58,110 nucleotides of DNA from Pelagibacterales bacterium SAG-MED47 (lineage in GTDB: Bacteria > Pseudomonadota > Alphaproteobacteria > Pelagibacterales > Pelagibacteraceae). Both the position numbers and the translations under genes were made by a program. The notes beneath the pieces were generated by a model. It ran no database searches and was not told where the DNA came from. It saw only the letters and a list, made by a program, of their open reading frames with translations. The stretch covers positions 1-58,110 of the forward strand of contig JACWEO010000007.1 in assembly GCA_014653355.1 (NCBI GenBank), written 5' to 3'. This document shows, piece by piece, positions 20,874-23,532 of this stretch. The first letter of the stretch is position 1. Every line of letters starts with the position of its first letter.

Positions 20874-22949
20874 ATGAAAATACCACAACTTAGAAAAAAA
20901 ACCGAAACAAAATCTTGTCACAACATCACTTGGGAAGATAATTATAGCTGGATACATCAAAAAAATATTTTAGAGGTTCTTAAAGACAAAAGTAAACTAG
21001 ATCCTGAGGTAAGAGATTACCTAATTCAAGAAAATAAACACACAGATTTTCATTTGAAAGACACAAAAAATTTACAAAAAAAATTATTCGATGAGATTAA
21101 AGGAAGAATAAAGCTAGATGACGAGTCACTTCCATATAGGGATAAGGAATATGATTATTGGACAAAAACTACGACTGAGGGAAATTATTCTATTAAACTT
21201 AGGAAAAAAATTGGTTCGAATTTAATTGAGGAGATATGGAATGGAGACAAAGAAAAAGAAAAATTAAGTGTTGAATATTTTGGAGTAGGTGATTTGGCAG
21301 TTAGCCACAACGATAGATTGCTTGGATATTCTTTAGATACTAAAGGGTCGGAATATTATACAATTTTCATTAGAGATATTGTTTCAAATAAATTAGTAAC
21401 CAAAAAAATTGAAAATACATCCGGTGGTATTATCTTTAGTTTAAATGATGAATATATTTTTTATTCTAAACTAGATAAAAATCACCGAGCCAGAAAAATT
21501 TTTAGACACAAAATTGGAAATTATGATAGTCAAGACGAATTAATTTTTGAGGAAAAAAGTGATGCTTTTACTGTAGGTATTGGCTTGAGTTCAGATGAAA
21601 AATATTATTTTATTTCTACCTCAGACCACAATACTTCGGAACAATATTACTTTGCTGTAGACGAGGAAGTACCAGATCCTAAGCTTATATTAAAAAGAAA
21701 CAAAGGAATTTTGTATTCGGTTAGTTCTTGGAATAATAAGTTTTATAATCATACGAATAAAGATGCTGAAGATTTTAAGATTGATGTCTGCGAAAACTTA
21801 GATAGACAAAATTGGAAACCTTTTATTTCTGCAAAAAATGAAGTTCTTATTGGGGGATGCGTTTTTCTTAAAAATTGGATAATTCGATCTGAAACCTCAA
21901 ATGCTTTAGATAAATTATTTGTAAGAAATGTTTCTACAGGAAAAGAAGAAGAGTTAGTTTTTTCAGATGAAAAAGTTTATGTACCAAATATTTCTTTAAA
22001 ACAAAGAGATAGAAATACAGACAATATTTATGTTGGATATTCATCTCCAAAAACACCTTCACGGGTTTTTTCTTATAACCTTTTAAAAAAATCTAAAAAA
22101 TTAGTTAAAGAGCAAAAAATTCCCTCAGGTCATAATCCTGATGATTATGTTGTTGAGAGAATTGAATATAAGTCTCATGATGGAAGAATGGTTCCTTTAA
22201 CAATAACCAGGAATAAAAAAACTAAAATTAATGGCTCTGCTAATTTGTTACTGTATGGCTATGGTTCTTACGGAAACTCAATGAGTCCAAGTTTTTCATC
22301 TATAAAACTCAGTTTAATCGACAGAGATATAATTTGGGCTACAGCTCATGTTAGAGGTGGGATGGAGAAAGGTATGAAGTGGTGGAAAGAGGGAAAACTA
22401 ACAAATAAAAAAAATACTTTTGAAGATTATATTTATGCTGCGAAGTATTTAATTGAAAAAAAATATACTTCTAAAGGTAAGATAATTGGAATGGGTGGTT
22501 CTGCTGGTGGTTTGTTAATGGGAGCAGTTGTAAATCAATCTCCAGAATTATTTTTAGGAATTATGATGGCAGTACCATTTGTTGACTCTTTAACTACTAA
22601 TCTTGATCATTCCTTACCTTTAACAATTGGTGAATTTGATGAATTTGGGAATGCTAAAGATAATAAACAACATTTTGAATATATATTTTCATATGCTCCC
22701 TATAACAATATAAAAAAAATGGATTATCCTCATATGTTAATTACTACAAGTCTAAGCGATAACAGAGTTTTATTTGATGAACCTGCAAAATTTACAGCTA
22801 AGTTAAGAGATTTTAAAACAGATAATAATTTGTTGCTTTTAAAGACAGAAATGAACGCTGGACATGGAGGAAAATCAGGTCGTGATGGTGCTATTGAGGA
22901 AATTGCCTTGGATTATGCTTTTGCTTTAAAGATTTCTCAAAAAATTTAA
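20874..22949 (+). CDS. ptrB: Oligopeptidase B (prolyl oligopeptidase family)
   Basis: Serine peptidase of family S9A, 691 residues, which cuts short peptides, typically after basic residues. An N-terminal beta-propeller (about 70-400) is followed by an alpha/beta-hydrolase domain. The nucleophile is in GMGGSAGGLLMG, the usual oligopeptidase B form. The oxyanion-side LYGYGSYG and the His-bearing NAGHGGKSGR near the C-terminus complete the site. DNYSWI near residue 25 is the family's N-terminal signature and supports the start. A perfect TATAAT at 20858-20863 just ahead suggests a leader of only a few bases. Confidence 0.93.
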   Translation: MKIPQLRKKTETKSCHNITWEDNYSWIHQKNILEVLKDKSKLDPEVRDYLIQENKHTDFHLKDTKNLQKKLFDEIKGRIKLDDESLPYRDKEYDYWTKTTTEGNYSIKLRKKIGSNLIEEIWNGDKEKEKLSVEYFGVGDLAVSHNDRLLGYSLDTKGSEYYTIFIRDIVSNKLVTKKIENTSGGIIFSLNDEYIFYSKLDKNHRARKIFRHKIGNYDSQDELIFEEKSDAFTVGIGLSSDEKYYFISTSDHNTSEQYYFAVDEEVPDPKLILKRNKGILYSVSSWNNKFYNHTNKDAEDFKIDVCENLDRQNWKPFISAKNEVLIGGCVFLKNWIIRSETSNALDKLFVRNVSTGKEEELVFSDEKVYVPNISLKQRDRNTDNIYVGYSSPKTPSRVFSYNLLKKSKKLVKEQKIPSGHNPDDYVVERIEYKSHDGRMVPLTITRNKKTKINGSANLLLYGYGSYGNSMSPSFSSIKLSLIDRDIIWATAHVRGGMEKGMKWWKEGKLTNKKNTFEDYIYAAKYLIEKKYTSKGKIIGMGGSAGGLLMGAVVNQSPELFLGIMMAVPFVDSLTTNLDHSLPLTIGEFDEFGNAKDNKQHFEYIFSYAPYNNIKKMDYPHMLITTSLSDNRVLFDEPAKFTAKLRDFKTDNNLLLLKTEMNAGHGGKSGRDGAIEEIALDYAFALKISQKI

Positions 22950-22958
22950 TTTTTAAAT

Positions 22959-22986
22959 CTTGAAAAAATAAAACTAATAACTAAAT
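22959..22986 (+). promoter_or_regulatory. Heat-shock (sigma-32-like) promoter of hsp20
   Basis: CTTGAAA (22959-22965), 15 bases, then CTAAAT (22981-22986). Elements and spacing match those in front of groES. The predicted transcription start is about 22993, leaving a leader of about 57 bases that contains the two hairpins described at 22993-23049. Confidence 0.52.
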
Positions 22987-22992
22987 AAAACT

Positions 22993-23049
22993 TGTAGCTG
23001 CCTTATGGGGCTTACACAAAATAACTTGCTTTACAAAAGGAGAATATAT
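22993..23049 (+). promoter_or_regulatory. ROSE-like RNA thermometer in the hsp20 leader
   Basis: Two hairpins fill the leader. Hairpin 1 (22994-23015) pairs GTA/GCT/CC with GG/GGC/TAC around a TTAT loop, with single bulges. Hairpin 2 (23025-23042) pairs CTT-CTTT with AAAGGAG around the loop ACA, with G23028 bulged. This puts the Shine-Dalgarno AAGGAG in a weak stem opposite TTGCT. The U-(U/C)-G-C-U opposite the Shine-Dalgarno, with an unpaired or G-opposed G, is the hallmark of ROSE thermometers of alphaproteobacterial small heat-shock genes. The folding was done by hand. Confidence 0.65.
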
Positions 23050-23496
23050 ATGACAAGTAAGGATCTATCTATATTTAACTCATTAAGACCATTTTCAATA
23101 GGTTTTGACGATATGTTTGACCAATTTGAGAATATGTTGGGCAATGGTACTTTGACAATGCAGTCAAACTACCCGCCATACAACATTCGAAAAGCTGGTA
23201 AAGACAACTATGCAATAGAAGTTGCCTTAGCTGGATTTAATAAAAAAGATGTTCAAGTTGAGTTTGAAGATAATTTGTTAACTGTAAGAACAAATCAAGT
23301 TAATAAACCTATGGACAAAACTGCTGATGGAGAAATCATTCATAAAGGAATTTCTCAAAGACAATTTGCAAGATCATTTACCATTGCTGATGATGTAAAA
23401 GTAAATGATGCGGAACTTAAGGATGGACTTTTAACAATATCTTGTGAAAGAATTGTTCCAGAACATAAAAAGAAAAAACTTATAGAAATAAAATAA
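23050..23496 (+). CDS. hsp20: Small heat-shock protein Hsp20 (IbpA-type)
   Basis: ATP-independent holdase chaperone, 148 residues from the chosen start. The alpha-crystallin domain (about 35-125) includes YNIRKAGKDNYAIEVALAGF, VEFEDNLLTVRTNQ and GISQRQFARSFTIADDV, ending DGLLTISCERIVPE. The start at 23050 (MTSKDLS) is preceded by AAAAGGAG at a normal distance. A longer in-frame version from 23005 would begin inside the leader structure and is unlikely. The probable controls are a sigma-32-like promoter and a ROSE-like thermometer. Confidence 0.96.
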   Translation: MTSKDLSIFNSLRPFSIGFDDMFDQFENMLGNGTLTMQSNYPPYNIRKAGKDNYAIEVALAGFNKKDVQVEFEDNLLTVRTNQVNKPMDKTADGEIIHKGISQRQFARSFTIADDVKVNDAELKDGLLTISCERIVPEHKKKKLIEIK

Positions 23497-23507
23497 GCTT
23501 AACCTTG

Positions 23508-23532
23508 CTTGTGGGGTGCGACTCCCCACAGG
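23508..23532 (+). terminator. Hairpin between hsp20 and lipoprotein gene, possible terminator
   Basis: CTTGTGGGG (23508-23516) pairs with CCCCACAGG (23524-23532) around the loop TGCGACT, a strong nine-pair stem with one G-T wobble. It lies 12 bases past the hsp20 stop, between convergent genes. There is no T-run on either side, so it may be a 3' stabilising or processing hairpin rather than an intrinsic terminator. Confidence 0.5.

Follow-up and report, generated by a model that had tools for sequence, protein, structure and literature searches.

A two-hairpin leader precedes hsp20 in SAR11

The hsp20 gene of SAR11 bacteria very probably carries in its 5′ leader a two-hairpin RNA thermometer of the ROSE-like type, as judged from sequence comparison and from analogy with known systems. 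Here, we document how this leader is structured, together with its conservation and covariation among relatives, starting from a 58,110-nt stretch of DNA (the window) from an uncultured Pelagibacteraceae (SAR11) genome, in which positions 22993 to 23049 form the leader of hsp20. The 80 named relatives retained from one scan, at 86 to 93% identity, all belong to Pelagibacteraceae or Candidatus Pelagibacter, which places the window in SAR11. An earlier note, made from the letters of this stretch, had described two hairpins, the second pairing CUUGCUUU with AAAGGAG, masking the Shine-Dalgarno (SD) sequence and leaving G23028 unpaired; both letters and coordinates were confirmed. The gene holds the sole HSP20 match in the 1.13-Mb assembly. 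A mechanical listing of open reading frames (ORFs) begins hsp20 at an in-frame ATG at 23005, inside hairpin I, and so yields a protein of 163 aa; ORF calling from this ATG therefore hides the leader. The features of the locus, all on the + strand, are as follows.

22959 to 22965, +: −35 box CTTGAAA of a sigma-32-type promoter (sequence; spacing in relatives; consensus in PMC3669281)
22980 to 22987, +: −10 box ACTAAATA of the same promoter (sequence; spacing in relatives)
22993 to 23016, +: hairpin I, stable, upstream (fold; two-sided changes; de novo RNAalifold prediction)
23025 to 23042, +: hairpin II, presumed temperature sensor (sequence; CUYGCU conservation; changes in the wider set)
23037 to 23042, +: SD sequence AAGGAG (sequence, 8 nt 5′ of AUG)
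23050 to 23496, +: hsp20, 148-aa small heat-shock protein (PF00011, HSP20; E = 4.3 × 10−17)
23055 to 23061, +: coding bases AAGTAAG, from the last base of codon 2 through codon 4, a possible alternative partner of 23025 to 23031 (minimum-energy fold; frozen codons)

Hairpin I has its own bulged G (23000) within a UGCC/GGG core. In hairpin II, the strand at 23025 to 23032, which reads CTTGCTTT, pairs with AAAGGAG (23036 to 23042) through seven pairs around the bulged G23028 (last two digits of 230xx: C25-G42, U26-A41, U27-G40, C29-G39, U30-A38, U31-A37, and U32-A36). A bulged-G core is thus common to both hairpins (YGCY opposite RGG, read as UYGCU opposite AGG[A] in hairpin II), and the same is seen in the consensus of the Rfam family ROSE_3.

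Of 208 distinct leaders, 188 have TTGA[AC] at 15 nt from a CCATATA- or CCTAAATA-like box, and 196 have it at 13 to 16 nt, a spacing that fits the sigma-32 consensus quoted in PMC3669281 (CTTGAA-N13-18-CNCCATAT). Given boxes at 22959 to 22965 and 22980 to 22987, the transcript is therefore expected to start near 22993, at hairpin I. On the 3′ side of hsp20, ahead of a gene on the opposite strand, lies a strong hairpin (CTTGTGGGG-N7-CCCCACAGG; 23508 to 23532) that is kept in relatives with changed letters (e.g., ACTTGCGGAG-N-CTCCGCAAGT) and is probably a terminator shared by the two genes.

The leader is conserved and covaries among relatives

We take conservation to be what raises this leader above chance, with comparison among relatives decisive and folding energy alone no proof. 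Of 297 family genomes, 214 encode a relative of the Hsp20 protein; among those of good quality, the figure is 119 of 128. Leaders were extracted from 140 loci, of which 124 were distinct by their last 56 nt, and 111 were aligned by sequence alone (alignment A1). When both hairpins were imposed on A1, 92.4% of its cells were paired, and the covariation score was 0.301, versus 0.177 after shuffling and 0.04 to 0.13 for slid structures. For hairpin I, 97.7% of the cells were paired, two-sided compensatory changes occurred at eight of nine pairs, and RNAalifold predicted it de novo from A1. Its core reads YGCC opposite GGR with a bulged G, the column of which holds G in 109 of the 111 leaders.

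Hairpin II was absent from the RNAalifold consensus of A1. Its changes among the 111 SAR11 leaders were compatible with pairing, with two-sided changes at two of seven pairs in few cells and none at the two G-C pairs of the core; this last result is expected if the SD sequence is fixed and is not proof. All 111 aligned leaders contain CUYGCU, four of them with UCGCU, in which C takes the variable place of the published U(U/C)GCU motif, and the spacer between the two arms varies from 2 to 7 nt. The order CUYGCU-GGAG-AUG was found at all 230 loci that had been retrieved by protein or by position and had enough upstream DNA (178 distinct 60-nt leaders), as well as at 49 of 52 hsp20 loci retrieved with the RNA model; the three misses, from other families, have UCGCU or CGCU. 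The ends of the stem alternate. The bottom C faces G in 42 of 42 leaders, and that G is present in 42 of the 69 lacking the C; the bottom C-G and top U-A pairs never co-occur (bottom C-G without top U-A, 42; top U-A without bottom C, 63; neither, 6). Such alternation would hold the strength of hairpin II roughly constant, in sequences that share ancestry and are non-independent.

To extend the comparison, a covariance model built from the A1 leaders (R1) was used to align 33 diverse elements (A2). In this alignment, which is fitted to and leans towards the structure, the covariation score was 0.571, versus 0.181 after shuffling and at most 0.107 for slid structures. Two-sided changes appeared, again with the structure-fitted A2, at three of the seven hairpin II pairs, the lower ones: the pair under the core was C-G in 28 elements, A-U in 3, and G-C in 1, and the outermost pair was A-U in 8, C-G in 8, U-A in 5, U-G in 3, and unpaired in 9. 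The earlier note had named a lack of covariation across 23025 to 23042 among relatives as refuting; instead, changes were found there, compatible within SAR11 and two-sided at the lower pairs in A2.

These data bear directly on the reading of the leader as a chance hairpin in A+T-rich DNA or as an N-terminal extension of hsp20 from ATG 23005, which we consider highly improbable: a fold z-score of −0.66 and the 163-aa ORF listing speak for it, but chance is refuted by the covariation and by recovery of the element across families, and a start at 23005 is unsupported by relatives, in which the CUYGCU-AUG distance ranges over 21 to 26 nt with all three frames represented and 172 of 208 leaders have an in-frame stop 3′ of hairpin I and ahead of AUG.

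The leader is ROSE-like and falls below Rfam cut-offs

In sequence and structure, the ROSE-like reading of the earlier note holds: the U(U/C)GCU strand, the bulged G, and the SD sequence in the 3′-proximal hairpin are all conserved, and so are the stable upstream hairpin and the small heat-shock gene (PF00011). At gathering cut-offs, Rfam gave no match in the window; ROSE and ROSE_2 (RF00435 and RF01832) also had no match at E ≤ 10 in 22900 to 23100. In that interval and at that threshold, ROSE_3 (RF02523), apparently the Pseudomonas type, spanned its whole model at 22993 to 23055, aligning end to end with both hairpins and the bulged G in each; unlike members of that family, however, the leader misses the cut-off (19.7 versus 43 bits; E = 0.043). 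ROSE_3 exceeded its cut-off in none of 97 order genomes. No ROSE family was matched at E ≤ 1 on 20 loci, some of them 3 kb long; on 20 short loci at E ≤ 10, ROSE_3 matched just two leaders, those of L032 and L127 (22.9 and 19.7 bits, below cut-off). Two leaders from other families scored 34.5 and 28.6 bits, at the correct position and again under the cut-off. ROSE_3 was the best Rfam match in all these cases (the window leader, two relatives, and two other-family leaders). The leader fits the ROSE-like class but, failing those cut-offs, belongs to no curated Rfam ROSE family.

The closest known counterpart is the leader of Pseudomonas ibpA, a two-hairpin ROSE-like element of 61 to 62 nt. According to PMC3669281, transcription of ibpA is sigma-32-dependent; hairpin II melts while hairpin I stays folded, hairpin II by itself responds to temperature in vitro, and hairpin I is conserved beyond the needs of stability. 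In Pseudomonas putida, sigma-32 transcription and the thermometer work jointly (PMC3669281). The SAR11 leader shares with this system a length of about 60 nt, two hairpins, an SD sequence masked by U(U/C)GCU in the 3′-proximal hairpin, an unpaired AUG, a stable hairpin I, a small heat-shock gene, and a sigma-32 promoter (PMC3669281). In contrast to what that source describes for Pseudomonas, it is A+T-rich and alphaproteobacterial, its hairpin stems are shorter, and codons 2 to 4, which are frozen, complement its anti-SD strand. In the classical ROSE elements, those of rhizobia and of enteric ibpA, U(U/C)GCU likewise faces the SD sequence in the last hairpin, before a small heat-shock gene, but there are three to four hairpins rather than two (PMC3669281). 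The leader had been called a possible minimal form; with a two-hairpin leader of 61 to 62 nt in Pseudomonas (PMC3669281) and similar leaders in other alphaproteobacteria, it is not unusually minimal, and we regard it as a new lineage of the two-hairpin ROSE-like type already described for Pseudomonas ibpA.

Our literature search found no paper linking SAR11, heat shock, and an RNA thermometer; papers returned for a SAR11 thermosensor and for a Pelagibacter Hsp20 untranslated region were unrelated by title. The terms “heat shock” and “hsp” are absent from the main text of a SAR11 RNA survey (PMC2704228), which tabulates intergenic regions of >100 bp; the hsp20 intergenic region here measures 100 nt.

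Leaders of this kind in further alphaproteobacterial families

In the window’s own genome, R1 matched the hsp20 leader with E = 1.2 × 10−12. The next matches, L162 (E = 0.95) and L163 (E = 2.9), have no ORF and were rejected as ROSE elements, and inspection by eye showed no leader of this kind at the rpoH gene of this genome (L187). Over 297 order genomes, R1 matched in 223 (129 of the 150 of good quality), among which matches with E values of 0.001 to 0.01 can be chance. We took as chance the weak matches in the sister family f174 (E = 0.0015 to 0.01) and the second matches in genus genomes, with no downstream hsp20 among those listed in either case, together with the matches at L182, L185, and L186.

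Similar leaders were also present in other alphaproteobacterial families. Over 385 genomes of the class, 24 had an R1 match at E ≤ 0.01, 19 of them outside the family; these 19 lay at the start of hsp20 (13), at rpoH (3), and at other genes (3, taken as chance). By eye, one hsp20 leader (L181, 1501 to 1598, genome G326) carries an additional small hairpin, placed after hairpin I and before hairpin II, along with a CGCUUAAGGAGG sensor, and is perhaps between the two- and three-hairpin forms.

ROSE-like leaders were further seen directly 5′ of rpoH at L341, L346, L340, L343, L337, and L342 (genomes G545, G499, G448, G461, G664, and G317, respectively). When R1 was run on 30 rpoH loci, taken from 26 of 28 chosen genomes, five had a match at the rpoH start (E = 2 × 10−7 to 0.0012); the sixth leader, from the same order as two of the five, matched weakly (E = 0.53). 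In five of the six, AUUGCU stands opposite AAGGAU, a compensatory change in SD pairing. ROSE-like leaders stand ahead of rpoH in five genomes, and perhaps a sixth, all from other alphaproteobacterial families. The review PMC4166951 describes ROSE elements as always tied to small heat-shock genes. A literature search on rpoH and RNA thermometers brought up no recognised report of ROSE-like rpoH leaders in the portions of the papers at hand.

Folding models and a possible partner within the coding sequence

The leader was folded at several temperatures, as the earlier note advised. For the window leader with AUG, the predicted probability that the SD sequence is unpaired was 0.06 at 0°C, increased to 0.31 at 37°C, and reached 0.55 at 50°C. 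The minimum-energy structure of the 72-nt fold pairs CUUGCUU with coding bases 23055 to 23061, not with the SD sequence. This fold is no more stable than expected (z = −0.66; 43 of 200 shuffles fold equally well). Across 124 leaders with AUG, the mean unpaired probability changed only shallowly, from 0.17 at 5°C to 0.30 at 45°C. At 15°C, SD occlusion was greater in 21 hsp20 leaders than in 56 other ORFs with an SD sequence (medians of 0.16 versus 0.30; P = 9 × 10−6); we rejected occlusion as proof on its own, as 8 of the 56 control ORFs match the value for the window hsp20 (0.12). When hairpin II was forced, its mean energy over 205 of the 208 leaders was −5.4, −4.0, −2.7, −1.05, and +0.07 kcal/mol at 5, 15, 25, 37, and 45°C, and the modelled temperature of zero free energy had a median of 41.5°C, lending no support to the suggested tuning to a cold ocean. 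Energy models, which omit nonstandard pairs and ribosomes, are in our reading neither proof of a thermometer nor a sign of cold tuning.

The coding partner raises the possibility, which we hold to be rather unlikely, of a two-partner switch in which CUUGCUU pairs with either the SD sequence (off) or coding AAGUAAG, the two being mutually exclusive. The coding partner might, with similarly low probability, free the SD sequence, or compete with it and thereby set the opening temperature. The anti-SD strand would then swap between the SD sequence and codons 2 to 4, with synonymous sites frozen for that purpose, and the open state would be a defined structure rather than simple melting, an arrangement we doubt. 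Such a switch refines the thermometer and is no alternative to the leader’s role. Besides the 72-nt fold, it is favored by models with 18 coding nt, in which the anti-SD strand pairs with codons 2 to 6 with a mean of 0.74 to 0.79 (124 leaders). In the same models, the SD sequence is unpaired with a mean of 0.72 to 0.81 at every modelled temperature, which speaks against the thermometer reading. With 57 coding nt, however, pairing of the strand with codons drops to 0.13 to 0.23, and SD exposure rises from 0.29 to 0.44. The alternative helix would also place the SD sequence and AUG in a loop, which may itself impede the 30S subunit. Covariation is no test of the switch because both partners are nearly invariant.

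The codons themselves point both ways. Codons 2 to 4 (ACA AGT AAG) show zero synonymous variation in 48 distinct coding sequences, and Lys-4 is AAG in 180 of 180 Lys-4 leaders, though AAG makes up 14% of Lys codons in the window ORFs and neighboring ORFs have AAA as the majority codon at all 16 of their conserved early Lys positions. Only 2.4 to 3.7% of synonymous versions (usage-weighted) give a stronger duplex. Against this, the partner is absent in relatives with other N termini (AAA in five of the nine non-MT leaders having an early Lys), and AAGGA in codons 4 and 5 could be frozen for other reasons. Arg-4, where present, is AGG in two leaders and AGA in one. Synonymous entropy at conserved codons averaged 0.38 bits for the 6 up to codon 9, versus 0.94 bits across the 99 that follow (P = 0.005); control codons lacked variation at 22 of 96 positions in 20 genomes, so that invariance alone is not rare. 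Frozen codons 2 to 4, low early synonymous entropy, and the AAG excess at Lys-4 therefore make an RNA-level constraint on codons 2 to 4 likely, with pairing to the anti-SD strand one candidate cause.

A proposed mechanism for temperature control of hsp20

Masking of the SD sequence in the cool and melting of hairpin II in the warm is the best supported mechanism, by analogy with Pseudomonas; temperature melting and translational control are what we infer from experimentally studied relatives. A sigma-32-type promoter, judging by its position, would give a transcript beginning at hairpin I. At cool temperatures, hairpin II would hold the SD sequence in a short, G-bulged helix with CUUGCUUU, and ribosomes would load poorly. 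On warming, this weak helix would melt while hairpin I remains folded, allowing Hsp20 to be made.

It seems improbable that a factor rather than mainly temperature governs this SD-masking leader, for example, a small heat-shock protein acting on its own leader. E. coli IbpA reportedly binds its own leader, and the conserved hairpin I with its invariant loop-proximal core could be a (putative) binding site. Conservation of hairpin I beyond stability is noted for Pseudomonas too, but there, in vitro, hairpin II alone is temperature-responsive (both in PMC3669281). Factor control can also operate alongside a thermometer.

The rpoH leaders suggest that ROSE-like control, in some alphaproteobacteria, includes the heat-shock sigma factor itself. 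ROSE-like elements extend past the reach of Rfam models, and the SAR11 alignment offers a basis for a better one. For SAR11, a very abundant group, a conserved hsp20 thermometer would provide a directly testable route from water temperature to chaperone synthesis.
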